From positions 508,501-572,500 of the forward strand of contig JALBUN010000034.1 of the NCBI GenBank assembly GCA_025174535.1: DNA of 64,000 nucleotides, given 5' to 3'. The translations under genes and the position numbers were made by a program. Positions 37,185-63,744 of the stretch are shown here, one piece after another (positions within the stretch are counted from its first letter, which is position 1; each line of letters opens with the position of its first letter). The stretch is from Cantharellus purpuraceus. Lineage: Eukaryota; Basidiomycota; Agaricomycetes; Cantharellales; Hydnaceae. The notes under the pieces are model-generated. The model saw only the letters and a list, made by a program, of their open reading frames with translations. It had not been told where the DNA came from and did no database searches.

Positions 37185-37609
37185 ACAGGATCAAGGATCT
37201 GGAGTTTGACTTGTCAAGAAAGTACTTGTCAAGAAGCTAGCAACCAAGAAGTTGATGGGGCAAATCTTAGTCGATATACAAACTACTGTAACAGACAGGG
37301 AGTAGCCTTTATATGTGGAACATTGAATGATAAAACTAAAAGTGATAAGACAATAAGACAGATATGGAGTACAACACAGAAAGGAGTTTAGAGTTTGGAC
37401 CCCAAGTCCAAACTAATACTAAGCAATATGAAGGAAGAAGGTTTGTTGTGACCTGTAAGAAAAAACTACTCATAAGGAGAACAATAATGGAGTTTGGAGT
37501 TAATGGAGGTGGAGTTGACAGAGGTGGAGTAGATGGAGATGCAGTAGATGGAGATGCAGTAGATGGAGATGCAGTCTGGAGATCAGATGTGGTGTTACAG
37601 GATGTAACA
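37185..37609 (+). repeat. LTR family F fragment (3' part)
   Basis: Matches the second half of the copy at 38001-40071, ending GGATGTAACA. Contains three tandem 15-bp TAGATGGAGATGCAG units near 37530-37575. The left side is replaced by the copia LTR. Confidence 0.7.
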
Positions 37610-37830
37610 TCCTGACATTTCTTGTTGGCCTGAAACATCTGGCTGATGTGACTTTCAATGATTGCATCATATGCTGCTAACAGGTTTGATTGAGCCTGTT
37701 GTGTGAACTGCCTGACACCCTTAAATTTGGTGTCATTATTCATAGGTATGCCTATTCTAGGCATATACCCATAATTAAGCTCAAACAGAGTAAATCCCAT
37801 CATTGAGCTTATATTGGGGTTCAGTGCAAA
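37610..37830 (-). pseudogene. Ty3/gypsy integrase C-terminal fragment
   Basis: The minus strand encodes MMGFTLFELNYGYMPRIGIP, then GVRQFTQQAQSNLLAAYDAI and IESHISQMFQANKK, the stretch after the integrase core in basidiomycete Ty3 elements. It is a different lineage from the element at 48.75 kb. Confidence 0.65.
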
Positions 37831-37837
37831 CTTGTTA

Positions 37838-38000: not shown

Positions 38001-40071
38001 TGTTAAGTGCTGGGATACTAGGGGTTCAATGGAGTAAACAGAGTTTGGATGCTAGTGATGTAGGGGAGGGGACTTTACTGTTCCAGTTCAACTGGAGACA
38101 GAATGGGGCAATAACTATTGAGTCGGATCGAGTGGACTTGGCTACAACTTGTGTGTTGTGCCCCCTCTGTATGGGAACTGGTTTTCCCTTAAAAAAGATC
38201 TTGTTTAAAGTCCCAAAACTGTACAATTTTGCTTCATGGCCTTAAAATATCAGCATATATCTGCTGCTTTCTCTTGATTCAGGGCCATTCAAATATTCTC
38301 TATTTTTTCATATTTTTTTTGGGAATTTTCCATGCAGAAATGAGTCTACAAACTTATTGTTCTGCTGGGCGAAGTTTTGGGACCCACATGGACCCACAAA
38401 CCTTCGCAGATGTCAGCAGCCCCAAAGTCACCCGGAGTCACCCAGACTACTGACTCATTTTCGATCACATGACTCATTTTAATCTCCGACTCAATCTGGT
38501 CACCACTGCCAGTAAATGCTCAATATCTTCGCAACCACTGCACCTCCTGACTCCATTTTCAGTGGAGAGTTCAATAGAAGCTGTGCCTACCCATAGCTGT
38601 GCTAATCAGCCCGGGAAACGAAGTATTGACCCAGTTATTTGAGTAATGGTGACTCATGCAATGACTCCTGCCATGACTCATGCTATGACTCCTTCCATGA
38701 CTCATACCATGACTCCTGTGATTACTCATACTATGACTCCATCCATGACTCATGCCATGAGTCAGAGCAAATCCAAGCAGCTCATTGGCTAGGAAACTTC
38801 CACCCCCTTCTCACATATTCCACTAGCTTCCAGTAGTTTCCATCTATTAATAGGTAGAAGTTTCCAGTAGTATTAGTCAGCTCCTGTAAATACAATATAA
38901 AAGGAGCCCATTCTGCCTCTGAATAAATAACCATTTCTACCCCATCATCTGCACATCAGTGTGACTAGAGTGACATACAGTGTCATCCTCTATATCTCAG
39001 TAACTGTTGATTGTCCAGTTCAAGGGTCGCTTACAGTTGTGTAACTGTATTCGATTGCACTCAAAGTAGTGATTGTCCTGCTTTGGGCATGAGTGTAGTA
39101 TCTACCTCGCGTGACTACGAATCTACAGGGTGAGATTGTCTGTTGATAGTCCTGCCATTAGTGCTCTTGTTTAAGTTACTAGTGTGTACTACCTTTGCAG
39201 AGCATTAGAATCTTGAACTCGTGTGAAGCAGTTGCTAGACTACTTCACACATCGCTGTTACCCGCTTCAGAGTGTCACTGGTTGGACGGTTGGATTCATC
39301 CACCTACTTCCTCTAGCCTCTAAGTGCATTCCCCTCTTTTGGAATATCTGGACCCCTAAGCGTCCGTGAACTCTAGACTCTGGAAGTCTTATTCATTCCC
39401 TACTGCTAAGAAACGTATTACCTTCCTGCGTATCGTCTGCATTGACCATTACAATGGATTGTAACCAAAGTACAAATGTTAAATCGTTTCTGGAGTTGTG
39501 CTGCAGTAGGATTTGATATTCTTCTCAGCTGTTCATTCACGGAATTGTGGTGATTTAGAGTTTGCCCTAACACCATAATTTTGCGGGTTCCAAAACACCC
39601 TCAGATTGTCAGTCCAATATTTTGGAGTTTGGAGCATGGAGTTGGATCAAGGATCTGGAGTTTGACTTGTCAAGAAAGTACTTGTCAAGAAGCTAGCAAC
39701 CAAGAAGTTGATGGGGCAAATCTTAGTCAATATACAAACTACTGTAACATACAGAGAGTAGCTTGTATAAGTATGTGAAGAATTGAATGATAAACTAAAA
39801 GCGATAGGACAATAAGACGGATGTGGAATACAACATGGAAAGGAGTTTGGAGTTTGGACTCAAGTCCAAACTAATACTAAGCAATATAAAAGATAAAGAT
39901 TTGTTGTAACTCATAAAAGGAAACTACTTATAAAGAGAACTAATGGAGTTTGGGGTTGATAGGAGTGGAGTTGATGGAGGTGGAGTAGAGGGAGATGGAG
40001 TTGATGGAGGTGGAGTAGAGGGAGATGGAGATGGAGTCCAGAGATTATATGTGGTGTTACAGGATGTAACA
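38001..40071 (+). mobile_element. LTR family F copy, split by LTR-A copy 2
   Basis: Runs from TGTTAAGTGCTGGG to TTACAGGATGTAACA, about 636 bp after removal of the insertion. Contains purine-rich GGAGTAGAGGGAGATGGAG repeats near 39.96-40.04 kb. It is followed by GTATCTCC, the same start as the sequence after LTR-B at 31480, so it may be a 5' LTR. Confidence 0.75.
38168..39597 (+). mobile_element. Solo LTR, family A, copy 2
   Basis: 1430 bp, target duplication CCCTC (38163-38167 and 39598-39602), nested in LTR-F. Its 12-bp TGACTC array has ten units (from 38650). Confidence 0.92.
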
Positions 40072-40300
40072 GTATCTCCTGTCTAGATTGAGCCCATGAG
40101 ATCTTAGTCAGCATCATGGGAAAAATGTTGGTGTATGCATTTAAATTGGCACATAAGGCTGGGCCAATTATTAAAATGTGTGTTGTTCCCTCTTTTCCTC
40201 TTACCATCATCTGCTATGCCCTCTGCAGATGAGCTTCACTAGCAACACACTGAATTGGACAAATTGATCATGGAGGCTGGCTGATGCTGCAGAGAAAAAG

Positions 40301-40611
40301 ATGGCAGAAGAAGAGAAGAAGATAAAGAGGGAGGAGGTGGCTCATGTGAGGGCTGTTGAAGTTGCCCAAGTCAGGGCAGAGGTTGCAAAGAAGAGGGCCT
40401 TGATGAAGGCGGCCATGAAAGGCAAGGAGGTTGTCCGGGACCTGGACAAGGAGTCTGAACTGGACCTCATATGCGATATGTGTATAAAATGTGATGACAT
40501 GTGTGAGTGGGCAATGGTGAGTGAACAGTGATGGTAGATTGTATGATACTGATTATTATTTTAGTTGGGGAAGTCCCGTTCTTGCCTCGTGTGTCAATCA
40601 AATCAGCTGAA
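40301..40611 (+). CDS. Coiled-coil plus Cys-cluster ORF of an LTR element (two exons)
   Basis: Starts MAEEEKKIKREEVAHVRAVE, an Ala/Glu/Lys helix, then CDMCIKCDDMCEWAM. A GTGAGT donor at 40516 and TTTTAG acceptor near 40564 remove the stop and continue LGKSRSCLVCQSNQLKYEVK. The Cys spacing resembles the paired zinc-cluster tails seen on some basidiomycete transposon-linked proteins. It follows the GTATCTC start after LTR-F. The downstream part is cut by the reversed LTR-A at 40895. The 3' end of the frame is uncertain. Confidence 0.45.
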
Positions 40612-40894
40612 ATATGAGGTGAAAGGTAGTGCTCCTCTGTGTCGAAAGTGTGATCATGAGAAAGGCAGGTGGAACCTTCTCCCAAGCATCGGAGGCCTGC
40701 AAGTACTGGTCCTGCTGCAGAGGTGATCTCTCCTGCCCTGATTGAAGCCATGCAAGATATGTCAGAATTCATATGACTGCCATGGCTTGCCATTTGCTTG
40801 ATACCAACAAGCAAGTGAGGAGTAACACCAATGCCCTCCAAGGCATTGAACTCAAATTGGAGAGTTTAATAACTTGTTCCATAAGTATGCAACG

Positions 40895-42319
40895 ATGTTT
40901 TGGAACCTGCAAAATTATGGTGTTAGGGCAAGCTCTAAATCACCTGAATGAACAGCTGAGAAGAATATCAAACCCTGCTGCAGCACAACTCCAGAAACAA
41001 TTTAACGTTTGTCCTTTGGTTACAATCCCTTGTATTGGTCAATGCAGACTATATGCAGAAAAGTAATACATTTCTTAGCAGCAAGAAATGAATAAGACTT
41101 CCAGAGTCTAGAGTTCACGGATGCTTAGGGGTCCAGATATTCCGAAAAGAGGGGAATGCACTTAGAGGCTGAAGGAAGTAGGTGGATGAATCTAACCGTC
41201 CAACCAGTGGCACTCAGAAGCGGGTAACAGCGATGTGTGAAGTAGTCTAGCAACTGCTTCACATGAGTTCAAGCTTCTAATGCTCTGCAAAGGCAGTACA
41301 CACTAGTAACTTAAACAAGAGCACTAATGGCAGGACTATTGACAGACAATCTCACCCTGTAGATTTGTAGTCACATGAGGCAGATACTACACTCACACCT
41401 AAAGCAGGAATATCACTACTTTGAGTGCAATCAAGTACAGTTACACAACTGTAAAAGATCCTTGAACTGGTAATCAACAGTTACTGAGATAGAGGATGAC
41501 ACTGTATGTCACTCTAGTCACACTGGTGTGCAGAAGATGGGTAGAAGTGGTAGAATATGTTACTATTTCAGAGGCAGAATGGCCTCCTTATATATTGTAT
41601 TTACAGGGGCTGAGTAATGCTTCTGGAATATTCTACCTATTAATAGATGGAAACTACTGGAAGGTTGTGGAAGGTGGAAGAAAGGGGTAGAATATTCCAA
41701 GCCAATCACAGGTTCTGATCACTGCACTAACACTGATCAGGAGCTGAATAATGGTTCTGGAAAGTTCTATCTAATAATAGAGGGAAACAGCTAGAATGCT
41801 ATGGAAAGGGGTAGAATATTCCAAGGCAATCACCTGATTTGATCACCCACCAGCTGATTTGATCCCTGAACTAGGCACTGATCAGGCAAAAAGAAGGGTG
41901 TCCACCCTGTTTTCTGCACTGGTTTGGACAGCCATGGATAGCCACATCTCAGGTGATGATCCGCATGGAAAATAGTGCCCTGAGAGGCTGTGATTGTCAA
42001 GTTACAGAATATTTATTGATCAGAGACATCTGAGCTTGAATTCAGGCCAAATGCCTGGTCCAAAGGGGGAGAGCTGGCTGTGCGAAGGTTTGTGGGTGCC
42101 TATGGGTCCACAACTGTAGCACAGCAGGAATAAATGATTCTGGGCCGAGTTCTGCATGGAATATTCCTGAAAAAATATCAAAAATTAGAGAATATTTGAA
42201 TAAGTCCATTCCAGGTACAAGCATCAAATATATGCTGATATTTAGGAATGGAAAAGCAAAGTATAGCACATTGGTGCTGCATAAATGGAATTTGATAAGA
42301 AAAAGGTGGTTCCTATACA
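40895..42319 (-). mobile_element. LTR family A, copy 5, reversed and diverged
   Basis: The minus strand runs from TGTATAGGAACC to GGTTCCAAAACA, about 1425 bp. It is clearly older than copies 1, 2 and 4, with many CpG to TpG/CpA changes. Flanks AACGA/GACAA do not match. Confidence 0.8.
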
Positions 42320-42470
42320 GACAAATCATGGTTTGGGACTGCTCCATAAGGAGATAATTGCACTGGAGATGGAGGATCTGGTCATGGTTAATGACTCGGA
42401 TTTGGACACAGACTCTGTGGGGTCTTGGAAGTACATCAGAGAACTACCATGGGTCAGATGATGAGAGGGT

Positions 42471-42698
42471 GTGGGCACTGGGAGCCATACATTCCTTGGT
42501 ATTTCACCTCTATCTCATAACATGGATAAAAGAGTTGAATGTGAGGTAGAGTTTCAGTCACCATCACCAACCTATCCTCCCACTTCAATCCAACTCAGGT
42601 TACATCTTGTCAGGCAAAGGGACCGAATACCCTTGGAACAGGATACCATATGGAGACAGATCACCAAGACAATAAGGAGTATTTGTTGTGGTTGCTGA
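42471..42698 (+). pseudogene. ORF3 fragment
   Basis: Encodes SHTFLGISPLSHN, VECEVEFQSPSPTYPPTSIQ and IWRQITKTIRSICCGC, the second half of the protein at 32226-32660. The upstream half is missing or degenerate. Confidence 0.7.
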
Positions 42699-42711
42699 CT
42701 GAAGTCCTCAT

Positions 42712-43034
42712 GTGACTCAGGGTCGACTTACCTTTGGAGCTGTAGGGAAGATGGTATTGGTGGACATTTCTATTGCTCTTTTATATGACTCACCCCTGTT
42801 TCATCTTTTAATTCATTCATACATGATTTATTCATCCTTGTTCTATTTTTGGTTCTTTTATTACTCATCATCTCCTATTCTTACAAAGATTACCTCTATC
42901 TGTTGTTTTGTTTCTCTATGATTTCCCCATTAGTAGTTCAACTTCACACACTTTGTCAGCTGGCTTGATCAGCATTTCTTGCATCATATCGCATCATTTG
43001 CTCCTCATATTGTGTTGTTGTGCCCTAGGGATTT
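42712..43034 (+). repeat. LTR family E fragment
   Basis: TGTGACTCAGGG and following sequence match 32674-32990; cut by LTR-A copy 3 at a GATTT site. Confidence 0.65.
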
Positions 43035-44253
43035 TGTATGGGAACTGGTTTTCCCTGAAAAGATCTTGTTTATGGTCTCAAAATTGTATATTTTCACTTT
43101 ATGGCCTTAAAATATCAGCATATACATGCTTTCTCTTGATTTAGGGTCATTCAAATATTCTCTATTTTTTTTCATATTTTTTTTGGGAATTTTCCATGCA
43201 GAAATAGGTTCACAAATTTATTGTCCTGCTGGGCAAAGTTTTGGACCCACATGGACCCACACAACTTTGCAGATGTCAGCAGAGTCACCTGATCTACTGA
43301 CTCATTTTTGATCACATGACTCATTTCTCTGACCCAATCTGATCACCACTGCCAGTAAATGCTCAATATCTTGGCCACCACAGCTCCTTCTGACTCCATT
43401 TTTGGTGGAGCTTTCAATCAAAGCTGTGCCTACCCATAGCTGTGCTGATCAGCCCAGGAAATGGGGTATTGCCTGAGTTAAGTAATAGTGACTCAGGCTA
43501 TGACTCCTGCCATGACTCATAACTATTAATAGGTAGAAGGATTAGTCAGCTCCTGTAGATACAGTATATAAGGAGGCCATTTTGCCTCTGAATAAATGAC
43601 CATTTCTACCCTATCATTTGCATATCAGTGTGACTAGAGTGACATACAGTGTCATCCTCTATATCTCAGTAACTGTTGATTGTCCAGTTCAAGGGTCGCT
43701 TACAGTTATGTAGCTGTATTTGATTGCACTTGAAGTAGTGATTGTCCTGCTTTGGGTGTGAGTGTAGTATCTGCCTCACGTGACTACGAATCTACAGGGT
43801 GAGATTGTCTGTTGATAGTCCTGCCATTAGTGCTCTTGTTTAAGTTACTAGTGTGTACTGCCTTTGCAGAGCATTAGAATCTTGAACTCATGTGAAGCAG
43901 TTGCTAGACTACTTCACACATTGCTGTTACCCACTTCAGAGTGTCACTGGTTGGATGGTCGGATTCATCCACCTACTTCCTTTAGCCTCTAAGTGCATTC
44001 TCCTCATTTTGGAATATCTGGACCCCTAAGTGTCTATGAACTCTAGACTCTGGAAGTCTTATTCATTCTCTACTGCTATTCTGCATATCGACTGCATTGA
44101 CCATTACAGGGGATTGTAACCAAAGTACAAACATTAAATTATTTCTGGAGTTGTACTGCAGTAGGATTTGATATTCTTCTCAGCTGTTCATTCACGGAAT
44201 TGTGGTGATTTAGAGTTTTGCCCTAGCACCATAATTTTGCAGGTTCCAAAACA
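43035..44253 (+). mobile_element. LTR family A, copy 3, shortened and diverged
   Basis: 1219 bp. Ends TGTATGGGAACT..GTTCCAAAACA are kept, but the flanks (GATTT / ATATG) do not match. The TGACTC array is reduced to about three units and many CpG sites read TpG or CpA. Confidence 0.85.
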
Positions 44254-44458
44254 ATATGGCTCTGGAGGGGGGTGACTCTCAGTTGTCCCTGATGTTGTCA
44301 TGATATCCTCATCCAATGGGATAGATGAGGAGGAGGTAACCACTAGTGTGGTGTCTCACTCAAGGTCACAATCTAGCTTATTGTGACACAAATGCTCCAC
44401 TAGGGAGTGTTTAGCAGCTTTTTGTGCTGCTTGAGGGGCTCCTAGAAGTCCCTGTTAC

Positions 44459-45628
44459 TTACCAACCCTGGCAGGTTGGTTGAATGCTTCTCCAGATATG
44501 ATATGTCTGGTGAACACCTCTAGGAGTACAGCACAAACAGGTGATGCCTCCCATTTGTCCAAGCCAGACAGCTAATTCCAGCTCAGTATGCTCTTTGGGG
44601 GGACAACTCCCCCAATCATATGCTTCCATAATGGAGGCATGGAATGAATCATCACAGGTTGGTGAAAACTTACAGTCACAGGTCAATAGTTCCAATTGAC
44701 TGACTTTCTGGAACATAGTCTGGAGGTTCTTCTTGAATATAGAAGAATCCTTTTTAGGTGTGACTTTCTGGAGCCACATCCAAATATCTACATCTTGTAG
44801 ATTCATTGTACCATCTGACTCTTGCTGGATGGCCAGGGAAACCTGTGGGGATTCACTTGCCACCTTTGTCTGAGGCAAGCATATCTATCAGTGTAGTTGG
44901 TAGAGTAACAATAAGGATTGCATTGCTGGTGTGAGCCAGTAGAGTCATTCTTTTAATGACTCTACACATTGGCACTGTTTGTTCAGTGAATGGGTTGGCC
45001 AATGCCTTTTTGTGCAATGACATGAACTCAGCAGAGCCTGTGTTGCATACATCAAACCAGTTTATCCTAATAGGGATGGACCTACCCAGTGGTTGAGGCA
45101 AATGGCCTGTGACTGTCCTGGGAGGGTCAGCCACAGTCAAGAACCGCACCCACTTTGGGAATGATTTCCCTGCATTGGCATGCTTAAGAGCATGCCCAAA
45201 ATCATCCCAGCGTTTGTGACAATTCACATGCTAGGCTCCCTCCAGCATTTTCAACACTGGATCTTTTAGCATATGGCTGGCATCACTAGCCATATACAGT
45301 ACTCCTTATGAAGCTGATCAATTTCAGCTTCAATTTTAGATAGGGAAAACTCTTTGAGTTTGCCTGATTGCTTAGCACCCTTAGAGATGCTAGACAGGAG
45401 GAGACCACATTTGTGGTTGTAGTCCTCCCAGATTGGGTCAGTGTCATCCCAATCATGACTCTCAAATTCTTGAGAGTCAAAATGAGGCAATTTATTTAGA
45501 TGATCATCCTCCTTAGTGAGGGCAATCGTTTCCTGTGATGATGATGCCATGGGTTGCAATAAAGCAATGGCAGGCAATGACTTACCTGCCATGGTGTGTG
45601 ATGATGAAGCTACTGTGGCCAAGCACAT
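44459..45628 (-). other. Unrecognised minus-strand frames inside the hairpin chain
   Basis: Three consecutive minus-strand open stretches: 45266-45628 (120 residues, starts MCLATVASSSHTMAGKSLPA, acidic DWDDTDPIWEDYNH), 44853-45227 (124 residues, includes FPKWVRFLTVADPPRTVTGH) and 44459-44878 (139 residues). They lie in different frames and may be exons or decayed pieces of one gene. I recognise no domain. Their codons overlap the hairpins. A further 71-residue Lys-rich frame lies at 45698-45913. Confidence 0.3.
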
Positions 45629-45916
45629 TGTTGTGAGCTTGGTTTTATAAGTAGGGGGTGCTTTTAATGAGCCTCCTTCATTGACTGTAACTCATTCTCA
45701 AGACAAGTTACATACTTGAGATTTCTCCTGTTTGAGATATCTCTCTAGCTCTTGGAGGGCCTGTACAAACAGGTCCTTGTTGTCCTTGTACAGCTTATTG
45801 TAACCTTTATGATAAGAGCTAGTGACATTGTCCTTGATGTTGTGTTTAACCATGGCCATGCAGTTCTTATGACACTTGTTCAGAAATACATCAAATATGT
45901 ATATACAACCCATTTC

Positions 45917-46037
45917 CTCAAATTTTATATAATATACTTATATTAAAACATATTTTGATATTTCATACATGATTCTCAAATTTATATAATTTACTTAGAT
46001 TTAAAACATATTTTGATATTTTGACATGATTCTCAAA
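45917..46037. repeat. AT-rich tandem duplication
   Basis: Two imperfect copies of about 60-70 bp containing TCAAATTTATATAAT and AAACATATTTTGATATTT. Confidence 0.7.
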
Positions 46038-46390
46038 AATAATTCTTTTTTTTTTCATTTACTGGTGGCAACTGCTTCAAGGGAATATTCTACTCCTGCT
46101 ACACTTAATTTCTTTCACTCATTCTTTCTTGTACTATACTGGTCAAATAATCTAATGTACCTTGACTCCTCACCTGTATATCTAAATATTCTCTATTATA
46201 CCAATAATATTAGTATATATTACTGTTATATTCATATAAATAATTATGTTCATCCATAACAAACATAAAGTTTATTAAAATATGAAATATATATTTATAT
46301 TTATAAAAATTTAAGATATCCAAAAAAAACTTGGATATCCGAAATCTTTAAAGATATCCAGATTGTAACTCCCTATTTTTATGATCATTA
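46038..46390. other. AT-rich stretch, no gene
   Basis: Very AT-rich sequence with T- and A-runs and inverted repeats such as GATATCCAA/TTGGATATC near 46316. No coding signal. Confidence 0.5.
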
Positions 46391-47493
46391 TTAAAATTCT
46401 GATGTACATCTTGTATACATCAGAATATTGTATAACAGCATCCTTCCGAACAAGCGTCTATGGCTTTCTCCACTGCAGTGGTGGAGGGATATAGTCAGCT
46501 CCAATTCTGAGCTTTGACCAAGTGCAAGACATAGCCATTGCACTTCTGATACCCCTGAGGGTGATGGATGGCAATGCCTCCATGCCATCTGCTGATCTTC
46601 CAGGTCATTGTGTCTTGATGACCTTGGATTATTTCAGCAGCACTTATTATAAGTGCTGCAAAGGTGGAAGGTTGTTTGACTTCCATTGGATGCTCATTTT
46701 GAGCATCCATCATCTCCCTCATGGGAGATGACATTTGATGGGGGGTGATAGTGGTTCAAAGAAACACCTTAGCCTTTTCACAGCTATACCTGAAAATTTC
46801 CTATGGGGAAAATTTTTTTTTTTCGGTGACTAATTCACATAGGTGTGATGTGATTAGGTATTGCTTGTGCCTTTCATGCTACCATGGGTAGCACAAAGGT
46901 AAACTTGTAAGTACCCTAGGTACTTACTTATGGTAAAACATTATAGATATATATATATATATAGGTATTTGTATCTACAGCATTCCCTTAAGGAATGCTG
47001 CTTCTTGACAGCTATAACAGTTTATTATATAATTGGTGGACCCAAGTATATGTGTGGGTCCATGTGTAGTAAAGGGAACTTAGATTTTAACCACAACTAA
47101 TAAAACTTGATTGAGTTCTGTGTCAGTGTGAACTAAGTCACACTTCTTACACACTTTTGAACTTCCACAGGAAGAATCAGTTGATTCTTCCTTCTTATTG
47201 AAGTTTTCTAGCCAGTGCTAGAAAACCAGCTGTTGCTGGTGTACAGACATATACCAACCCCCCCAGTTGCTTACACAAGTGAGCAACTAGTAGACTAAAT
47301 TAGTTAGTCTACAGAAGCAGAAGAGAAGGAGTCATCATAATGATGACTTGAAGTAGAGTGAGTCATGCTGGCAGCACCCAGGACATCATAAATGATGAAC
47401 AGTGGCACATAGCCAGCAGTAGAAGCTCCCACAAAGGGGAGCTAGATCCTAGAGAAGTTGCAGGGACTTCTCATAAGAAAGACTCTAGGAGAG

Positions 47494-48085
47494 TGTTACA
47501 TCCTGTAACACTGAGTTCCGATCTCCGGATTCCATCTCCACCTCCATCAACTCCACCTCCGTCAACTCCAGATCCCACCATTGTTCTCCTCATTAGTAGT
47601 CTTCTTCTTATGGGTTACAACAACCATTATACTTTCTAATTGTTTAGTATTAGTTTGGACATGAGTCCAAACTCCAAACTCCTTTCCATGTTGTATTCCA
47701 TATTAGTCTTATTGTCTTATCACTTTTAGTTTTACCATTCAATTCTCTACATACTTATACGGGCTACTTCTTGTATGTTACAGTAGTTTGTATATCAACT
47801 AAGATTCCCCATCAGCTTCTTGGTTACTAGCTTCTTGACAAGTCTTCTTGACAAGTTGAACTCTGGATCTTTGATCCAACTCCATACTCCAAACTCCAAA
47901 ATATTGGACTGACGATTCGAGGGGACGCAACACATAAGTTGAAGCCAAGTCCACTCAATCTGACTCAATAGTTATTTGTCCCCATCTGTCTCCGGTTGAA
48001 CTGGAACAGTAAAGTCCCATCCCCTTCCTCACTAGTATCCGAACACCAGCTACTCCTTTAAACTCTGAGTTTTCAGCACTTAACA
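47494..48085 (-). mobile_element. LTR family F copy inside the hairpin chain
   Basis: 592 bp, plus-strand ends TGTTACATCCTGTAACA..GCACTTAACA, in reverse orientation to the copy at 38001. Flanks (GAGAG / CACAC) do not match. Confidence 0.75.
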
Positions 48086-48364
48086 CACACACCAAATCAT
48101 GCATGATCTTTAGGTGCTTTCAGCACCTTAGAAAGGACAGTATCCTTTCTATATGCATCTCATACAATTTGTACAAGGTTGATTCCATGTTCAACATGGG
48201 ATTGCAATGGTGTTCTGTCATCATTTAATGACATTACTTCAATGTCCTCTATTTCTTTAGAGGGCTTGGAATCATCATTCAATGATCCTGCTTGAACATT
48301 GAGTGCTTCAGTTTCCAGCACTCTGTCCTCTTTTCTCTTGAGTAGTCATCTTTGGGTGACTGCT
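48086..48364. repeat. Chain of short inverted repeats, right part
   Basis: Consecutive inverted repeats: 48096-48107 ATCATGCATGAT; 48112-48128 AGGTGCT/AGCACCT; 48131-48149 GAAAGGA/TCCTTTC; 48185-48199 CCATGTT/AACATGG; 48216-48233 TGTCAT/ATGACA; 48246-48263 CCTCTA/TAGAGG; 48302-48322 AGTGCT/AGCACT; 48344-48361 AGTCATC/GGTGACT. Confidence 0.85.
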
Positions 48365-48752
48365 TGTTAAATGTCTGTGATGCTGGAGGTTCAATGGAGT
48401 AACTGGAGTTTGGATGCTAGTGATGAAGGGGAGAGGAATTTACTGTTCCAATTTAACTGGAGACAGAATGGGGACAATAACTATTGAGTCAGATTGAGTG
48501 GACTTGGCTTCAACTTGTATGTTGGATCGTTGGTCCAATATTTCAGAGTTCAGAGTATGGAGTTGGATCAAGGATCTGCAGTTCAACTTGTCAAGAAGGT
48601 ACTTATCAAGAAGCCAGCAACCAAGAAGTTGATGGGGAATCTTAGTCGATATATGAACTGCTGTAATAGACAGAGAGTAGCCCATATAAGTATGTGGAGA
48701 ATTGAATGCTGAAACTAAAAGTGATGAGACAATAAGACAGATATGGAGTATA
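48365..48752 (+). repeat. LTR family F fragment (5' part)
   Basis: Begins TGTTAAATGTCTGTG and aligns with the copy at 38001 until GATATGGAGTA, where the Ty3 5' LTR begins. The missing part is not found after the Ty3 element. Confidence 0.7.
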
Positions 48753-49113
48753 TGTCAGGGTTCAAATAAGTCATATTCTATTTTTAGTATTTTCTCTTGA
48801 CACCCTATCAGCGCAGCCTGTCAGGGTGCGTCTCCCCTATTTCATTGCCCCTATCACTTCCCCTATCTTTCCTCCCCTATCTTGGTTCTCCTATCCGTCT
48901 CCATCATTTAGTATAAAGACTCGCCTTGGTGCAGTGTGATCCCCTCAGCTTGATCTCTGAGGATATCCGCTGTACCAGGTAAGTCCCATGTATTTATCAG
49001 AAACAGCTGTATAGACTGAGGATATCCGCTGTACCAGCTGGCATTATTTCTTATCGGCTCTCACTTATTGAGTATCTTGTTGTTGTGGCCTCGTCATCAG
49101 CGTCGCCCTCACA
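48753..49113 (+). repeat. Ty3 5' LTR
   Basis: 361 bp, TGTCAGGGTTC..GCCCTCACA. TATAAAG at 48912-48918. A 21-bp stretch beginning CTGAGGATATCC occurs twice, near 48957 and 49017, the first copy followed directly by GTAAGT. Confidence 0.9.
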
Positions 49114-49115
49114 GA

Positions 49116-49125
49116 AGATCAAGCT
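49116..49125 (+). promoter_or_regulatory. Putative self-priming primer binding site
   Basis: AGATCAAGCT, two bases after the 5' LTR, is perfectly complementary to AGCTTGATCT at 48947-48956, which lies 35 bases after the TATA box, where the transcript should start. No tRNA 3'-end complement (TGG..) follows the LTR. The pattern matches Tf1/sushi-type self-priming. Confidence 0.6.
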
Positions 49126-49181
49126 CATAAGGCGACCCCACACCTCATAACACTTTCCCTATTAACTACTTCACCGATACC

Positions 49182-50324
49182 ATGACCGATCAGCTCCCTG
49201 AAGCCTATTGGGACACTCTAGGTGAAAGTGGTGGCTTTCTGCGAGCGTTGTTCAACACCCAGGCGCAGCAGCTCCAGCAGCTGCAACTCCAGAACCAGCA
49301 CCTCCAAAGCCAGTTCGCCAATGTCCAGAACAACCTAGCAGATGCTGCCACTGCTGCCGCCATTGCTGCAGCACAGACCATCTCTCAGACCACCTCATTT
49401 CCCACACCTTCTCCTACATCGTCATCCGTTTGCCCAATAAGGGCAGCTGAACCAGCCAAATTCAATGGAGATCGTGCAGAGACGGAAGGTTTCATTCGCT
49501 CTATCAGGCTTGCCATTGCAGTCCAGCCTACATCTTTCCCAGATGAGCGGACCAAGATCCTCTATGCCCTCTCTTTTATGACAGGAGGTTCTGCTGAAGT
49601 ATGGGCGCACAATGAGACACAGGCAGTCATTGACAGGACCTCACCACTCTCCACCTTGGAGGAATTCATTAAGCAAGTGGAGAACGCTTTTGGGGACCCT
49701 GACCGCTCTCGAACAGCACGAACAAAGCTACACGATCTTAGGATGACACCTGGCATGTCAGCGGATGAATACATGGCACAGTTTGAGATACTAGCAGGAA
49801 GGACTGGGTTTAATGATGCAGCACTGGAAGATGCCTATGCCCGAGGGCTCCCTGCAATGATTCTTGACAAGATCCATGCACAGCCATCCCTCCCGTCCGA
49901 TCTCAAGGCATGGAAGGAAGCGGCCTGTCAAATTGACCGCAACCACCGTCGTCTTCTAGAAGTGAGACGTGCTCAGACTTCCCTCACTCCTGCCCGCTCT
50001 ACCCCATCCCGCCCTCACAGCACTCCGGTCATCTCTGTACCAACTACCTTGGCAACCTCTAATGGTGCTGCACCTATGGATATTGACTCCAACCGCCATC
50101 GCATTGAGACTCGGACATGCTACAACTGTGGAAAGCGTGGCCATATATCCCCAGCATGCCCTGAACCACGCAAGGAACGTATCCGAGCTGATCTCACACA
50201 AACAGCAATTGCAGGCATGATATCAGAGTCAGTAGCAGCTGCACTGAAGGCCAAGGAAGAAGCGCAGAAGGCAGTAATTCCAAAGCAAGAGGAGAAGCAG
50301 GATTTTCAGGCCAGTCAGCAGTGA
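49182..50324 (+). CDS. Ty3 gag
   Basis: 380 residues from MTDQLPEAYWDTLGESGGFL. A Gln-rich coiled-coil N-terminus and an Ala run precede the retrotransposon-gag domain (PAKFNGDRAETEGFIRSIRL, LSFMTGGSAEVWAHNETQ, MSADEYMAQFEILAGRTGF). A zinc knuckle CYNCGKRGHISPAC (CX2CX4HX4C) lies near residue 310, followed by a basic/Ala-rich tail. The stop TGA is at 50322-50324. The open frame is intact. Confidence 0.93.
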   Translation: MTDQLPEAYWDTLGESGGFLRALFNTQAQQLQQLQLQNQHLQSQFANVQNNLADAATAAAIAAAQTISQTTSFPTPSPTSSSVCPIRAAEPAKFNGDRAETEGFIRSIRLAIAVQPTSFPDERTKILYALSFMTGGSAEVWAHNETQAVIDRTSPLSTLEEFIKQVENAFGDPDRSRTARTKLHDLRMTPGMSADEYMAQFEILAGRTGFNDAALEDAYARGLPAMILDKIHAQPSLPSDLKAWKEAACQIDRNHRRLLEVRRAQTSLTPARSTPSRPHSTPVISVPTTLATSNGAAPMDIDSNRHRIETRTCYNCGKRGHISPACPEPRKERIRADLTQTAIAGMISESVAAALKAKEEAQKAVIPKQEEKQDFQASQQ

Positions 50325-52594
50325 AGAGCATGCCCTGCCTGACAAACCGGTTTTCAGTTCTTGAATCATGTACTGTAGGGCTCACAAGCGATATGTTACA
50401 TGCACACTCCCTTGTCCATCAGACTGAAACCAAAACAGCCATGCCTGAAACCCCTTCTCAACTTCCAGCTAAACATGATGACCCTCCTCGTCTCTACCTT
50501 CGATCTGCAGACATCCATCGATGTACAAGAATTCCCATGAAAATCCATTCGGTAGACACTGGATACCCTCTAGCCGTGGATGCACTCCTCGATAGTGGTG
50601 CTACAGGAATGTTCATTGATGCAGAATATGTCAAAGCAGAGAAACTTCGAACACGCCCTCTACCACGTGCCATACCTGTTTATAACATTGATGGGACCCC
50701 AAATGAAGCAGGTTCAATCAAGGAAGAAGTCGATCTCATCTGCACATATGGGACCCATACCGAACGTGCCACATTTTCAGTCACAAGCCTGGGAACCTTT
50801 GGCATAATTGTTGGGCACACCTGGCTTGTGAGGCACAACCCAGAGGTAGACTGGCGTACAGGAAAGGTACAGATGACTCGCTGCCCTGATTCATGTGGAG
50901 AAGTACCAGAACACAAAGAGCATTCGCTTGGTACAACTCCTTCAAATGGCAAGAACTCACACGGGCAACCCCAATACAAGGGAGACCGAACATTTGTTAT
51001 CTTTGTAGAAGACTTGGAGAATATCTATGCTGGTTCAACAGTTTCTCAACAGCTCGCACAGAAGGCTGCAGAATCTACTCCAGTCAAAACCTTTGAGGAG
51101 ATTGTCCCAAAGGCGTACTGGGGATTTAAGGATGTTTTTGCAAAGGAGTCCTTTGACCAACTTCCACCTCGAAAACTGTGGGACCACGCTATTGAACTCA
51201 CTCCAGGAGCGCAACCCTTCAGCACAAAGGTCTATCCAATGTCCCCAAATGAGCAGAAGGAGTTGGACGCATTCCTTGAGGAGAACCTACGGAATCATCG
51301 TATACGTCCTTCCAAGTCACCCATGGCATCCCCTGTCTTTTTTGTGAAGAAGAAGGACGGTAATCTTCGTTTTGTGCAAGACTACCGCAAGCTGAATGAT
51401 ATCACAATCAAGAACGCCTACCCACTACCCCTGGTACCAGACATCATGAATAAAATTGCCGCAGCCAATGCCAAGTACTTTACCAAGCTTGACATCCGAT
51501 GGGGATATAACAATGTGCATATTAAAGAGGGCGATGAGTGGAAGGCAGCCTTTCGAACCAATCGTGGTCTATTTGAACCCCTGGTCATGTTCTTTGGTCT
51601 CACAAACAGCCCAGCAACCTTTCAGACGATGATGAATGGCATTTTCAAGGAGCTCATTGATGATGGCACTATGGTAGTGTTCATGGACAACATCCTCATT
51701 TTCACTGAATCCCTAGAACAACACCACACGATTGTGCAATCTGTCCTTGAAATTCTTCGGGCCAACCACCTGTACCTCAAACCAGAGAAATGCCTTTTCT
51801 CGCAACAGAAGGTAGATTATCTTGGATTGATTCTCTCACAGGGACAGGTAGCTATGGACCCAGTTAAGGTGGCCGGAGTCAGGGACTGGCCCACACCACG
51901 CAATGTGACAGAAGTCAAATCCTTCCTGGGTTTCATCAATTTCTATCGTCGCTTCATTGAGGACTTCTCACATATCGCAAAGCCTCTGAATCGGTTAACA
52001 AAGGCAGATACACAGTGGTCTTGGATACCTGATGGCCCAGAACAAGAAGCCTTTGATAAACTCAAGCAGCTTGTCACGTCAACTCCAATCCTTGTCCTCC
52101 CAGATCAAACCAAGCATTTTCGACTAGAGACAGATGCTTCAGCATATGCAACAGGTGCTGTTCTATCTCAACTCTGTGACGATGAGAAATGGAGGCCGGT
52201 AGGTTTTGTATCCAAGAGCCTTTCAGATGCAGAGCGCAACTATGCCATCCATGATAAGGAATTGCTCTCAGTCATCCGTGGACTAGAAGAATGGCGCCAC
52301 ATCTTGGAAGGGACCAAATACAAGATTGAAATCCTTAACGATCATCAAAACCTCACATATTTCCGTACAGCTCAGAATCTCAATCGTCGACAAGCTCGCT
52401 GGTCACTATACCTTTCTCGTTTTGACTTTGAACTGATCCACCGTCCTGGACGACATTCAGCCAAACCTGATGCCCTCTCACGACGTGTAGATCATAAGCG
52501 GGGGAGGAAGATAACCAGAACCAGATTCTTCTTGGCCCTGAGCTGTTCCACATCGATGCGACATCCACCTATCCAGGGCCAGAAGCTCAAATGA
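50321..52594 (+). CDS. Ty3 pol part 1: protease, reverse transcriptase, RNase H
   Basis: The frame is shifted from gag; the first in-frame ATG is at 50330, six bases after the gag stop, so expression needs frameshifting or reinitiation. Protease: DALLDSGATGMFID. RT: SPVFFVKKKDGNLRFVQDYR, LDIRWGYNNVHIKEGDEW, FGLTNSPATFQ. RNase H: FRLETDASAYATGAVLSQ, YAIHDKELLSVIRGLEEW, then DHQNLTYF. The RT metal-binding box reads FMDN (codons 51680-51691) where YxDD is expected, so the second Asp is Asn. After PDALSRRVDH a short G run at 52500-52504 appears one base short, the frame changes, and translation ends at 52592-52594. Confidence 0.92.
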   Translation: MKSMPCLTNRFSVLESCTVGLTSDMLHAHSLVHQTETKTAMPETPSQLPAKHDDPPRLYLRSADIHRCTRIPMKIHSVDTGYPLAVDALLDSGATGMFIDAEYVKAEKLRTRPLPRAIPVYNIDGTPNEAGSIKEEVDLICTYGTHTERATFSVTSLGTFGIIVGHTWLVRHNPEVDWRTGKVQMTRCPDSCGEVPEHKEHSLGTTPSNGKNSHGQPQYKGDRTFVIFVEDLENIYAGSTVSQQLAQKAAESTPVKTFEEIVPKAYWGFKDVFAKESFDQLPPRKLWDHAIELTPGAQPFSTKVYPMSPNEQKELDAFLEENLRNHRIRPSKSPMASPVFFVKKKDGNLRFVQDYRKLNDITIKNAYPLPLVPDIMNKIAAANAKYFTKLDIRWGYNNVHIKEGDEWKAAFRTNRGLFEPLVMFFGLTNSPATFQTMMNGIFKELIDDGTMVVFMDNILIFTESLEQHHTIVQSVLEILRANHLYLKPEKCLFSQQKVDYLGLILSQGQVAMDPVKVAGVRDWPTPRNVTEVKSFLGFINFYRRFIEDFSHIAKPLNRLTKADTQWSWIPDGPEQEAFDKLKQLVTSTPILVLPDQTKHFRLETDASAYATGAVLSQLCDDEKWRPVGFVSKSLSDAERNYAIHDKELLSVIRGLEEWRHILEGTKYKIEILNDHQNLTYFRTAQNLNRRQARWSLYLSRFDFELIHRPGRHSAKPDALSRRVDHKRGRKITRTRFFLALSCSTSMRHPPIQGQKLK

Positions 52595-54216
52595 TCACAG
52601 GAGAAGGAGACATATTCCTGGTACGTGTGCGGAACTGCACCAACAGAGATGAAAAGGTTGTAAAGGCTCTTAAGGAACTTGGTCCCTCTCGGAATTTACG
52701 AGGACAGGAATGGACCGAGGAGAATGGACTTGTCCTCTATCGTGGCAAGGTATATGTCCCTCTTGACCCAAAATTGCGCCATGACATTGTAAGGGCACAC
52801 CACGATACTCACATTACAGGTCACCCTGGTCGCTGGAGAACAACAGAACTTGTATCCCGCAGCTACTGGTGGCCTGGATTTGGACGATACATTGCCAAAT
52901 ATGTCAAGGGATGTGACCTCTGCAATCGGACAAAAACTTTCCCTGCTCCTCCTATGGGTAAACTCCTGCCTAATCGTGTCCCAGATCGGAGGTGGCAAGT
53001 GATATCTGTTGACCTTATTGTAGAACTACCCATCAGCCATGGCTATGATGCACTCCTTGTCGTTGTGGACCGTCTTTCCAAACGAGCACATGTTATCCCT
53101 ACCACCTCTGACATCAACTCCATAGGAGTTGCACGACTTTTCCGAGACCATGTGTGGAAACACCATGGCCTTCCTGAGGAGATCATCAGTGACCGTGGCA
53201 CCCAGTTTGTCTCTCAATTTATGCGTGAGCTCAATAAGCTTTTGGGGATCAAGGTTGCAGCATCCACAGCATATCATCCACAAACCGATGGTCAGACGGA
53301 AAGGGTAAATCAAGAAATTGAACAATACTTGAGGCTTTTCGTCAATCAGCGCCAGGATGACTGGATTGAGTGGGTTCCTCTTGCAGAATTCACATACAAC
53401 AACCGCATCCACTCCTCCACGCAATCAACCCCCTTCATGCTTGATACAGGCCAACACCCAAGGCTTGGGCTAGAGCCAATCCGAGAGACACGACTTGAAG
53501 CACTGGAAGAATTCACTGAGCGTATGGAGACAGCCACCACTGAGGCTCGCTCTGCCCTGGAAAAGGCAGCAGATGATATGGCACGATTCTATGATGCCCA
53601 TCGGCAAGCAGCCCCAGTATACAAACTTGGTGACAAGGTCTGGCTCAATGCACAAAATATCACCACCACCCGTCCAACCAAGAAACTTGATCACAAATGG
53701 TTAGGACCGTATGTGATTAATAAGGTGGTCTCACGAAATGCCTATGGCCTACGACTTCCCCCAATCTTTGGCCGCACTCATCCAGTGTTCTCTGTTGTCT
53801 TACTCCGTCCTTATGAAAAGGATCCCATCCCTGAACGCCAGTCATCTCCTCCACCACCTCCAGTCATTCGAGATGGAGTACAGGAATACGAAGTTGAGAA
53901 GATCCTTGACAGCAGAGTTTTCCGAGGAAGACTGGAATATCTGGTGCGTTGGAAGGGCTATGGAGCTGCTGACGACCTCTGGATCCCAGCTAAGGATGCC
54001 AGTGGGGCTAGAAGGCGCATTGCAGACTTCCATCAGGAAAATCCTGAAGCCCCAAGGCGTATTTCGGCAGCCACCTATGCGGCTCTTCACTTCAGACGCT
54101 TTGAGAACTTCACAGAACCTCCCAAACAGGTCCTCTTTGATTGGACAGCTGGCAGGAACCCAACACGTGGTACTGGACACATTTCAGAGCCGCAGAATAG
54201 GCACAATGAAGCTTAG
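52591..54216 (+). CDS. Ty3 pol part 2: integrase with chromodomain
   Basis: 541 residues; ATG at 52591 overlaps the preceding stop (ATGA). The HHCC zinc domain uses HHDTHITGHPG and CDLCNRTK. The catalytic DDE is present: D in VDLIVELP, D in SDRGTQFVSQF, E in ERVNQEIEQYL. A GPY/F-type region follows (KWLGPYVINKVV). The chromodomain near 53880-54040 has YEVEKILDSRVFRGRLEYLV, RWKGYG and DDLWIP, expected to guide insertion to modified chromatin. In relatives this region is continuous with RT/RNase H, so it was probably one ORF before the frame shift at 52500. Confidence 0.92.
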   Translation: MITGEGDIFLVRVRNCTNRDEKVVKALKELGPSRNLRGQEWTEENGLVLYRGKVYVPLDPKLRHDIVRAHHDTHITGHPGRWRTTELVSRSYWWPGFGRYIAKYVKGCDLCNRTKTFPAPPMGKLLPNRVPDRRWQVISVDLIVELPISHGYDALLVVVDRLSKRAHVIPTTSDINSIGVARLFRDHVWKHHGLPEEIISDRGTQFVSQFMRELNKLLGIKVAASTAYHPQTDGQTERVNQEIEQYLRLFVNQRQDDWIEWVPLAEFTYNNRIHSSTQSTPFMLDTGQHPRLGLEPIRETRLEALEEFTERMETATTEARSALEKAADDMARFYDAHRQAAPVYKLGDKVWLNAQNITTTRPTKKLDHKWLGPYVINKVVSRNAYGLRLPPIFGRTHPVFSVVLLRPYEKDPIPERQSSPPPPPVIRDGVQEYEVEKILDSRVFRGRLEYLVRWKGYGAADDLWIPAKDASGARRRIADFHQENPEAPRRISAATYAALHFRRFENFTEPPKQVLFDWTAGRNPTRGTGHISEPQNRHNEA

Positions 54217-54322
54217 CGCTCACCAAATTCATCCATGCCGAAATTCCACTAACTGTATATAAGCCAGTGAATCCACTTCCCCTTCCTCAGTAAAACCATC
54301 ATCGTTCACTACCCAACCCACC

Positions 54323-54760
54323 ATGCCTTACCAGTCTGAATCCACACCTCTACGCTCACTCCGTTCCTACCCCTCAATCACTTGGTCAGTTGACTCAAGG
54401 GATACTGCACGTGCTGTAGAGGATTATAACCTCCCATCTCCACCTCCACAAGTTCATTTCCCCTTCTGGCATCGTAATCCATCCAGACGCCAGACATACT
54501 ACATCGGGGACCCTCTATTCATCGGCAACCATGACATACCATATGCCTTCCAAGGGCTCGCCGGTAAAGTCACCTATGAGGGAGGGGAGATGATACTTGG
54601 GGCAGTTTTCAGCACGAACAATCCCATATCCCCTGGAGAGTTCACCATCCCACTTTACCCCAAGGCAGAGAAGAGTCACCATCAACACTCGTCATGGGCT
54701 CTACTTTGGCAGAGAGTGAGAAGGGACCTTGCAGAGTGCTTCAGGGTGTGTCTCTCTTGA
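54323..54760 (+). CDS. Third ORF (ORF3) of the Ty3 element
   Basis: 145 residues from MPYQSESTPLRSLRSYPSIT to CFRVCLS, between integrase and polypurine tract. An intact open frame and a TATA-like GTATATAAG 70 bp upstream suggest its own promoter. It shares its layout and length with the ORF3 of family-E elements (32226-32660). No transmembrane segment or signal peptide is visible, so it does not look like an envelope. Unknown function. Confidence 0.75.
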   Translation: MPYQSESTPLRSLRSYPSITWSVDSRDTARAVEDYNLPSPPPQVHFPFWHRNPSRRQTYYIGDPLFIGNHDIPYAFQGLAGKVTYEGGEMILGAVFSTNNPISPGEFTIPLYPKAEKSHHQHSSWALLWQRVRRDLAECFRVCLS

Positions 54761-54814
54761 GATGGATGGGACGATAGTGCATATCGAGACGACATGCATT
54801 AAGAGGGAGGTGAT

Positions 54815-55174
54815 GTCAGGGTTCAAATAAGTCATATTCTATTTTTAGTATTTTCTCTTGACACCCCTATCAGCGCTGCCTGTCAGGGTGCGTCTCCCCT
54901 ATTTCATTGCCCCTATCACTTCCCTATCTTTCCTCCCCTATCTTGGTTCTCCTATCCGTCTCCATCATTTAGTATAAAGACTCGCCTTGGTGCAGTGTGA
55001 TCCCCTCAGCTTGATCTCTGAGGATATCCGCTGTACCAGGTAAGTCCCATGTATTTATCAGAAACAGCTGTATAGACTGAGGATATCCGCTGTACCAGCT
55101 GGCATTATTTCTTATCAGCTCTCACTTATTGAGTATCTTGTTGTTGTGGCCTCGTCATCAGCGTCGCCCTCACA
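54815..55174 (+). repeat. Ty3 3' LTR
   Basis: 360 bp; differs from the 5' LTR at about four positions (small indels in C runs, one A/G). Confidence 0.9.
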
Positions 55175-56082
55175 ATCACTGGTTGAGGGATCTTGATCCA
55201 GGCTGTCATCTCTCCAAGAAACTCTGTCCACAGTCACAGGAGGACATTGAGGCCATGAGAGGTGTTCCATACCTTGCTGCTGTTGGGAGCCTGAACTACC
55301 TTGCCATTGACTGGACATTGCACATGCAGTTGGTGAACTTGACCAATTCAACTCAAATCCTGGTTTGGGCCACTGGAAGGCAGTATGTGCTCAAGGCACT
55401 GCTGAACTGGGGATGACGTATGGACCTCCAGACTCTGGTTTCCAAGTGATGCTCCAGGCCTACTGTAATGCCAGGATGCCAACCTATGAAGAGATGAGGA
55501 CAGGAGATGGTCAATGACTGGATATGCCTTCTTCATTGATGGAGCAGCAGTCAGTTGGAGCTGCAAATGACAACCCACAGTGACAACATCCTCATCTGAT
55601 GCTGAATACATGTCAGCTAACTTTGCAGGATGTGGTTGAACCAGCTGCTGACTGAAAACTTGGTTACCATCTTCCTCTGGTCACACTTAGCTGTGACAGT
55701 CAACCTGCTATTGTGGCATCCAAGAACCCTGAACACCAGGCCAGGATGTAGCACATTGATGTTATGTATCACTGGTTGAGGGAAAAGGTGGAAAGGAGAC
55801 TGCTGAACCTTCAGTTTGTGTCAACAGATGAGATGGTAGCAGATATATCAACCAAGAGTCTGGTGTGTGCCAAATGTGTGAAGTTCAGAGATGGGTTGGA
55901 TATTTGGAGGATTAAAGGGAGACTTCATTGAGGGAATGCACTGAAGGTGCCTAGAAAGATTGGTATGGATTGGATTATTCTGTGAGGAGATATGAGTGTT
56001 TTATGTATTACAATGTCACTTTTTTGGGGAGTTTGTAGTTTGGCTTATCTAATAATACACTTCTTCACTTTTGAGCTCTACA
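55175..56082 (+). pseudogene. Copia RT/RNase H remnant and LTR (second copia copy)
   Basis: The plus strand reads LDPGCHLSKKLCPQSQEDIE, VPYLAAVGSLNYLAI, then a broken RNase H (SSDAEYMSANF, KNPE, IDVMYHWLREKVERR, STDEMVADISTKSL) with several stops and frameshifts. It includes the same in-frame TGA after SWSCK-like sequence as the element at 33453. A partial copia LTR (about 55.93-56.082 kb, ending GAGCTCTACA) closes it. The first bases are a chimera of two parts of RNase H sequence. Confidence 0.75.
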
Positions 56083-57625: not shown

Positions 57626-57830
57626 AGGTGTGGCTTTGTAATGAGGAGGGATCCTTTCTCACCGCTGGAACCTGAAGCACTTGGAATATGAAGAAATGAC
57701 TGTTGGTAGAAACTGAGGGAGAAACGGAGGATGTAGTGGGCCAAAAAAGTGAAATGTGATTGAGGTTGAGGGTGTTGTTGAAGGGGAATGGTAGGGTTGG
57801 AAAAGGTGGATGGAATTTATGTATTGTGCC
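57626..57830 (-). repeat. Duplicate of the copia leader end
   Basis: Repeats about 57380-57600 (GTGTGGCTTTG.. to GGTGGATGGAATTTA), with minisatellite-like bases between the two copies. Confidence 0.75.
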
Positions 57831-63359: not shown

Positions 63360-63635
63360 TGTTATTGTCTGTCTTAGTTCACACTGTTGCACAGAACTCA
63401 ACCAAGTGTATTGGTTGGGCAATGTGTTGTACAGTGTGGTAGTTAACTAAGTTCTATCTACTACATGTGGGCCCACATGTGTACTTGGGTCCACTGGCTT
63501 ATATAATAACTATACATATGCACCCTATGGGTGCATATATCTACCAAGAAGACAGCATTCCTTAATGGAATGCTGCATACATTAATTATGACTATCTAAC
63601 TATATACTATAGTAAGTAAGTACCCTGGGTACTTA
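63360..63635 (-). repeat. Hairpin-module repeat, copy 3 (reversed)
   Basis: On the minus strand: GTAAGTACC..GGTACTTAC, CAGCATTCC..GGAATGCTG, TATGCACCC..GGGTGCATA, CATGTGGGCCCACATG, then GTTGAGTTCTGTG and GTGTGAACTAAG as at 47.1 kb. Confidence 0.75.
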
Positions 63636-63744
63636 CATCCATTCACATACCCATGTGTTATTGAATTCACATGTGCATGCATTGTTCCATTCACATGTGC
63701 ATGTATTGTTTAATTCACATGCACATGTATTCTTTCATGTGTGT
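63636..63744. repeat. Minisatellite, fourth block
   Basis: Units of TTCACATGTGCATG type, cut by an LTR-B start at 63745. Confidence 0.8.

Follow-up and report, generated by a model that had tools for sequence, protein, structure and literature searches.

In the genome of Cantharellus purpuraceus, the stretch at positions 44263-48364 of the analyzed DNA (contig JALBUN010000034.1, a 64,000-nucleotide region hereafter called the window) carries dozens of different short hairpins. As read from sequence comparison, it consists of nested fragments of a high-copy Ty3/gypsy long terminal repeat (LTR) retrotransposon family, lying mostly on the minus strand and with foreign repeats between them. The stems were kept while the element replicated and are decaying in the inserted copies. 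The most probable account, held with some reservation, is that local folding was selected during replication of the element, most likely as folded genomic RNA, and that template switching helped to write the hairpins.

Hairpins were counted as non-overlapping, perfect local inverted repeats with an arm of ≥6 bp and a loop of 0-12 nt, and dinucleotide shuffles served as the control. The stretch 44263-48364 contained 66 hairpins compared with 14.7 ± 3.1 in 20 shuffles (maximum 21), and the excess was also present with stricter arms (≥7, 45 vs 4.65; ≥8, 25 vs 0.7; ≥9, 17 vs 0.3). The arm sequences were unlike one another between hairpins. This confirmed the chain of dozens of different short hairpins described in the original prediction, and the density check proposed there, against dinucleotide shuffles, came out clearly above shuffled sequence; the spacing of nearly one inverted repeat every 30-40 bp given there was too dense, as the measured mean was one per 62 bp (66 in 4.1 kb). 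The other 1-kb bins of the window (outside 44-49 kb) held 0-7 hairpins each, except 63-64 kb with nine, six of which fall inside an LTR of the hairpin-rich family. Positions 1-36000 were close to chance (97 vs 89.5 at arm ≥6), with a small excess at arm ≥8 (11 vs 5.5). An Rfam scan of 40000-52000 resulted in 0 matches at the gathering threshold.

The original prediction had also considered a non-autonomous element with a structured genome; a single 4-kb element of that kind, or a non-coding one, is not supported. Block by block the stretch turned out to be a nest of family fragments and foreign repeats, and the fragments derive from a protein-coding LTR retrotransposon with hairpins running through its genes. 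In the following list, L-numbers are other loci that hold family copies in the same genome assembly (40.15 Mb, 50 contigs), copy numbers are lower bounds, and ORF3 is an open reading frame downstream of pol.

44254..45867, minus strand: family piece, most of ORF3 to near the 3' end, 21 hairpins; 74% identical to L020 2301-3854, with open minus-strand frames in L020
45868..46461, no strand assigned: later AT-rich insert resembling a miniature inverted-repeat transposable element (MITE), high copy, outside the family; occurs elsewhere in both orientations
46462..46904, minus strand: family piece, ORF3 start and preceding stretch, 11 hairpins; 46500-46900 gave 40 matches, itself and 39 others at 74-83%
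46906..47151, plus strand: LTR (TGTAAG...CTTACA) of a second family copy in opposite orientation; aligns with the 275-bp solo LTR at L020 6451-6725
47152..47492, plus strand: 5' untranslated internal region (5' UTR) after that LTR, hairpin-dense; in L092 (reverse complement 333-943) LTR and 5' UTR run on as one unit
47493..48083, minus strand: foreign repeat, first arm of a large inverted repeat, outside the family
48084..48364, minus strand: family piece, RNase H end to integrase start, 7 hairpins; 86% identical to L020 5971-6250; 40 matches, itself and 39 others at 85-89%
48365..48752, plus strand: foreign repeat, second arm of the inverted repeat, no hairpin excess
48753..56000, plus strand: related Ty3/gypsy element with chromodomain (Pfam), no hairpin excess, a natural control
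37599..37832, minus strand: further family piece (integrase), 80% identical to L020, 4 hairpins vs 0.5
63360..63640, minus strand: further family LTR, 87-89% identical, 6 hairpins vs 1.0

When hairpins were counted per block and compared with 30 shuffles, the excess was located in 44254-45867 (21 vs 5.8), 46462-46904 (11 vs 1.5), 46905-47492 (13 vs 1.8) and 48084-48364 (7 vs 1.0). The non-family blocks gave 4 vs 1.6 (47493-48083), 0 vs 0.9 (48365-48752) and, as a moderate excess of the AT-rich insert's own, 10 vs 4.2 (45868-46461).

The family was identified from its better preserved copies. Genome searches with four family pieces returned 106, 178, 97 and 327 first-look candidates (327 for 46906-47492), of which 40 were scored each. 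In the clearer copy L020, the minus-strand frames of 2200-6450 matched an integrase H2C2 zinc finger (E 4.8e-16) and a Tf2-1-like SH3 domain (5.4e-11), with an RNase H match (1.5e-25) immediately upstream of the integrase. Other copies gave Pfam matches to RVT_1 (9.1e-11), RNase H (1.6e-24) and the integrase core (3.0e-8). The protease match was weak and below the Pfam cut-off; the Ty3-type capsid PF19259 was matched with an E of 9.5e-6, yet at 25.6 bits it stayed below the cut-off of 29.1. After the integrase, a chromodomain match at L024 1717-2112 scored 15.7 bits (cut-off 25.1), while the preceding Tf2-1-like SH3 domain was above cut-off. The pol order protease, reverse transcriptase (RT), RNase H and integrase, with integrase last, was read from frames in L031. 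The order in L092 was LTR, 5' UTR, gag, protease, RNase H and integrase; Pfam scans covered its gag and protease pieces, and the positions of the other parts come from their similarity to L020. In L020, the 275-bp solo LTR (6451-6725, TG...CA) is flanked on both sides by AACTC, a 5-bp target duplication, and the empty site of this LTR is present in L015, L016, L022 and L025. Together, the copies indicate the layout LTR - 5' UTR - gag - protease - RT - RNase H - integrase - SH3/chromodomain-like tail - ORF3 - LTR. The element length of ∼9 kb is an estimate from the L092 and L020 maps placed side by side, without assembly. Based on the domains, LTR and gene order of the copies, the pieces in the window belong to a minus-strand Ty3/gypsy element, plus one LTR-5' UTR piece in plus orientation. 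With LTR ends and pol genes, instead of terminal inverted repeats without coding capacity, the element does not belong to the MITEs or foldback elements.

ORF3 (L020 2393-4227, minus strand) is the main coding content of 44263-48364. Its only Pfam matches (E 0.025 to 0.099) all fell below cut-off. Two environmental relatives were 46-48% identical over about two thirds of the query. In an integrase search of the genome (best 150 of 974 candidates), identities dropped from ≥57% to ≤42%, and this gap marks the family as discrete. Relatives in other species, known as proteins only, gave 222 matches, and the 120 of them that were listed were 51-78% identical; the integrases of three environmental relatives were 69-77% identical. 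Among viral contigs there were three pattern matches, with no relative among them. Copies of the family (L020, L009, L016, L026 and others) often differ by TG/CA at apparent former CpG sites, which suggests CpG methylation and deamination of family copies in the host. The host genome has 15 hydrophobin and 6 STE3 matches, gene families that point to a filamentous fungus, probably a basidiomycete.

Hairpins were present in every part of the element examined: LTR, 5' UTR, gag, protease, RT, RNase H, integrase, tail and ORF3. Fourteen coding pieces (6,144 bp; gag to ORF3) contained 94 hairpins, whereas synonymous codon shuffling left ∼21; every one of the 14 pieces exceeded the mean of its own shuffles. 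For the seven open reading frame pieces of L020 the same comparison gave 43 vs 10.4 ± 2.8. Per 300 bp, the density in L029, L030, L031 and L092 was high where the family was present and fell in inserts. In five other copies hairpins covered 32-42% of the bases at a median centre spacing of 41-52, and 70 aligned copy pieces (∼0.45-0.7 kb) held 4 to 16 hairpins each. The excess in L020 was found mostly at loops of 3-10 nt (55 vs ∼2.2), with a loop minimum of 3 nt; loops of 0-2 and >25 nt were at chance and a small residue remained at 11-25. The stems were mostly 6-10 bp long, and only 3 of 179 stems of ≥6 bp exceeded 10 bp (one region being counted in two copies).

Folding z was computed per 200-nt window for both strands. 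The sense/antisense values were -4.62/-4.74 in L020, -4.82/-4.06 in L024, -4.68/-4.04 in L023, -4.92/-4.83 in L016 and -4.55/-5.10 in L030, and L092 had a sense value of -4.59. With sense z between -4.55 and -4.92, these six copies fold far more strongly than shuffled sequence along their coding parts, as is characteristic of viruses with genome-scale ordered RNA structure (GORS). The neighbouring Ty3 element, the integrase of which is 36% identical to that of the family, had a folding z of -0.09 sense and -0.04 antisense (49182-54216) and 15 hairpins vs 19.6 shuffled over 48753-56000.

To separate change during replication from change after insertion, variants were divided into private ones, found in one copy only and mostly post-insertion, and shared ones, found in two or more copies and mostly from the replicating lineage; CpG-type columns were removed. 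Private variants per site and copy were about equally frequent in arms and linkers: 0.0196/0.0199 for the internal set (15 rows), 0.0147/0.0112 for LTR + 5' UTR (21 rows), 0.0167/0.0141 for the set O3C (23 rows) and 0.0103/0.0105 for integrase (26 rows). Shared variants per site were 1.8 to 4.6 times rarer in arms than elsewhere, with 0.077/0.164 (internal), 0.072/0.328 (LTR + 5' UTR, where indel-rich linkers may inflate the contrast), 0.172/0.369 (O3C) and 0.043/0.076 (integrase). A neutral simulation on trees from the same alignments (25 runs per set), covering the internal, LTR + 5' UTR and O3C sets and leaving out the integrase set, gave shared arm/rest ratios of 0.93 ± 0.10, 0.94 ± 0.12 and 0.90 ± 0.14; the observed ratios were 0.45, 0.21 and 0.45. 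Since private rates were about equal and shared rates lower in arms, the arms were held during replication and released afterwards. By codon position, shared variants in arms and elsewhere amounted to 0.130/0.339 at third, 0.068/0.110 at first and 0.049/0.072 at second positions, and the constraint at third positions makes protein constraint alone insufficient. Raw arm divergence (8.4% vs 17.6%) was dropped as evidence because picking stems by their perfection in L020 could account for a difference of roughly this size; the comparison of private and shared variants and the neutral simulation were used in its place.

Changes on both sides of a stem were examined with CpG masked in 18 rows, where 476 of 591 pairs could be tested. 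Forty double-change cells in 12 pairs still paired and 0 did not, compared with 1-10 pairing cells in 1-9 pairs and 9-22 non-pairing cells in twelve slid controls; as the alignment rows are related by descent, these cells are not independent. None of the 12 double-changed pairs were neighbours, and one hairpin held two separate ones; masked CpG columns could hide multi-base arm conversions. The raw count of 132 double pairing cells was rejected, because CpG decay, with TG in one copy and CA in another, imitates compensation; it was the masking that dropped 115 of the 591 pairs and left the 40 cells. Structure under selection, one of the two origins considered in the original prediction, gains support from the constrained arms and the pairing double changes.

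The other, fold-back template switching, is supported by loops that were inverted between intact arms. Exact inversions were found in L016 (TACT/AGTA), L010 (TGAGGGTTCA/TGAACCCTCA), L052 (TGCCAG/CTGGCA) and L043 (CCCAAGG/CCTTGGG, a flip of two bases); an inversion in L009 was one base off and an ATA/TAT flip occurred in 4 of 20 LTR rows shown. Loops nearer to their inverted partner by ≥3 numbered 7/123, 2/19, 3/21 and 3/14, against control means of 1.1, 1.0, 0.4 and 0.05, counts that include nested and CpG-ambiguous cases and that in the LTR set are barely above control (2 vs 1.0). Inversions at INT 290, PROJ 1786, PROJ 2522 and O3C 328 were dropped as evidence, being either weak or CpG-ambiguous. 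One report describes spacer inversion between perfect arms as a mark of template switching in yeast genes (PMC8604942), and another, on ribosomal RNA (rRNA) stems, proposes that RNA hairpins are created and maintained by template switching (PMC8794818). Template switching is a likely writer of the hairpins here. Most flips are private and may therefore have arisen in the host after insertion. In our reasoning, re-matching alone should not lower shared change in the arms, so selection is probably needed as well.

Several observations weigh against a folded RNA strand under selection. Single-sided changes that break pairing outnumbered pairing double changes by 307 to 40, so that the compensation check suggested in the original prediction came out divided: double changes keep the pairing, but pair-breaking single changes are far more frequent. 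We read the latter as decay after insertion. Covariation was thin in single sets, with pairing/non-pairing double cells of 8/2 in LTR, 26/5 in O3C and 0/1 in INT when stems were taken from any copy; one slid control also reached 8 in LTR, slid controls in O3C gave 2-12 pairing cells, and the signal is accordingly carried by the wide set and O3C. In-stem mismatches common to most copies (G.U 18, A.C 29, other 49, in overlapping sets) had no strand preference. Lastly, the stronger folding was sense in L024 and L023, antisense in L030 and about equal in L020, L016 and L092. A similar mismatch count in the phage MS2 gave 13 to 11, which makes the strand test a weak one. GNRA loops occurred 5 times sense and 0 times antisense among 23 (expected 0.80 and 0.51), a bias that hints weakly at RNA. 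An A as last loop base, seemingly sense-specific in gag and RT pieces, was rejected, as it is confounded by decayed closing pairs (C.A, T.G) and the window copy gave 12 to 12.

A purely mutational origin, in which reverse transcriptase or host replication switches template in near-palindromes and writes or re-matches arms without benefit, while protein selection only limits where, appears unlikely. The four exact loop inversions, the near-miss in L009, the ATA/TAT flips and the counts, above control means, of loops nearer to an inverted partner would all fit it, as would the inconsistent strand preference and the comparable events in yeast genes (PMC8604942) and rRNA stems (PMC8794818). It is hard to reconcile with shared arm change at 0.21 to 0.45 of the rest and a 2.6-fold deficit at third codon positions, with the scarcity of stems >10 bp (3 of 179), with the absence of neighbours among the 12 double-changed pairs, and with a neighbouring Ty3 element free of any excess. 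Selection could instead have acted on double-stranded DNA, if cruciform extrusion or disturbed pairing of copies hindered homology-based silencing or favoured integration. The inconsistent strand preference would suit this too, weak as that test is, and the heavy TG/CA decay suggests a methylating host. Stems of 6-10 bp, however, extrude poorly as cruciforms, and the GNRA loops are sense-only (5 to 0 of 23), so we regard this origin as improbable. There is very little to recommend the view that arms were conserved for other reasons, such as protein motifs or LTR promoter sites, with hairpins as a by-product of composition or palindromic motifs: the arms are indeed conserved and some LTR stems are near-identical among aligned copies, but dinucleotide and synonymous shuffles contradict it, as do the dissimilar arms, the third-position constraint and the pairing double changes. 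Nothing was found in favour of an artefact of assembly or of chance in AT-rich sequence, and both are practically refuted by 66 vs 14.7 hairpins and by the 4 to 16 hairpins in each of 70 copy pieces.

Under selected local folding, the target of selection would have been one folded strand, with genomic RNA the most likely candidate, and the encoded proteins would have been preserved at the same time. Some changes probably came from template switching between arms, a process by which loops are inverted and arms can come to match. Stems below one helical turn may keep the RNA folded on itself, which is the least certain step. Such self-folded RNA would expose few long stretches to which antisense RNAs or small RNAs could pair, and Dicer would find no long duplex to cut. 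In GORS viruses, structured RNA escapes innate sensing (PMC3950689). By analogy, the folding might serve to avoid long duplexes and small RNAs, a use that we propose tentatively. With the same caution it is conceivable that the lineage rewrote its entire genome, in LTRs as well as genes, as a selected chain of micro-hairpins that would shield it against host silencing.

Several other repeats lie in and around the stretch. The 594-bp AT-rich insert at 45868-46461, which sits inside the family ORF3, had 684 first-look genome candidates, of which 40 were scored; 40 of 41 other scored matches were 93-97% identical and one 74%, so the insert appears to be a young, very successful MITE-like repeat. 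The foreign repeats form a large imperfect inverted repeat (47694-48063 and 48389-48750, ∼85% complementary, 325 bp between inner arms), that is, two partial, oppositely oriented copies of one repeat flanking the family piece 48084-48364. Satellite arrays of 24 bp (ATTGTTCCATTCACATGTGC type) occur at 57819-59523, 61494-61874 and 63281-63731, with higher-order periods of 48 and 72 bp in the first and 72 bp in the second. The block 16001-20000 is GC-rich (64-68% GC) and contains one frame matching a TRF2/HOY1 PH-like domain (E 6.7e-13); the repeat-rich part of the window from 26 kb on has 37-49% GC.

Among known systems, the element resembles Ty3/gypsy chromoviruses in its TG...CA LTR, 5-bp duplication, RT, RNase H and integrase with SH3 tail in the usual order, with the capsid below cut-off and the protease weak. 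It differs from them in that its whole sequence is laid out as short hairpins, in the ORF3 downstream of pol and in a chromodomain match below cut-off. MITEs and foldback elements have one terminal inverted-repeat pair. The family shares inverted repeats and a high copy number with them, but its dozens of unrelated local pairs lie inside protein-coding sequence. Template-switch quasi-palindromes (PMC8604942, PMC8794818) have the same loop inversion between intact arms and pairing double changes; the former lists 10 spacer inversions in coding genes of yeast, whereas here ∼16 hairpins per kb occur in one element with constrained arms. The element offers a natural system for studying the origin and persistence of perfect stems, whether through selection or through template switching, a question raised in PMC8794818. 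Among the titles and abstract openings listed by an open-licence literature search, which were part of the matches for several queries, none described a retrotransposon with hairpins throughout, although this does not prove that none exists. For RNA viruses, selection on folding of the whole genome has been discussed, and the lineage could perhaps be a DNA-integrated counterpart of ordered RNA virus genomes with a different architecture of many perfect stems below a helical turn, a comparison drawn by analogy and with less than even confidence. A yardstick for the folding is the RNA of phage MS2, which also folds far beyond shuffles along its coding genome (z -4.36 sense, -3.81 antisense). In contrast to MS2, the element is a DNA-integrated retrotransposon, and L020 has 70 hairpins in 4,251 bases compared with 16 in 3,569 for MS2 (arm ≥6). 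With predicted folding of MS2 strength, many copies and a relative without such folding in the same genome, the trait can be dated, compared and tested.

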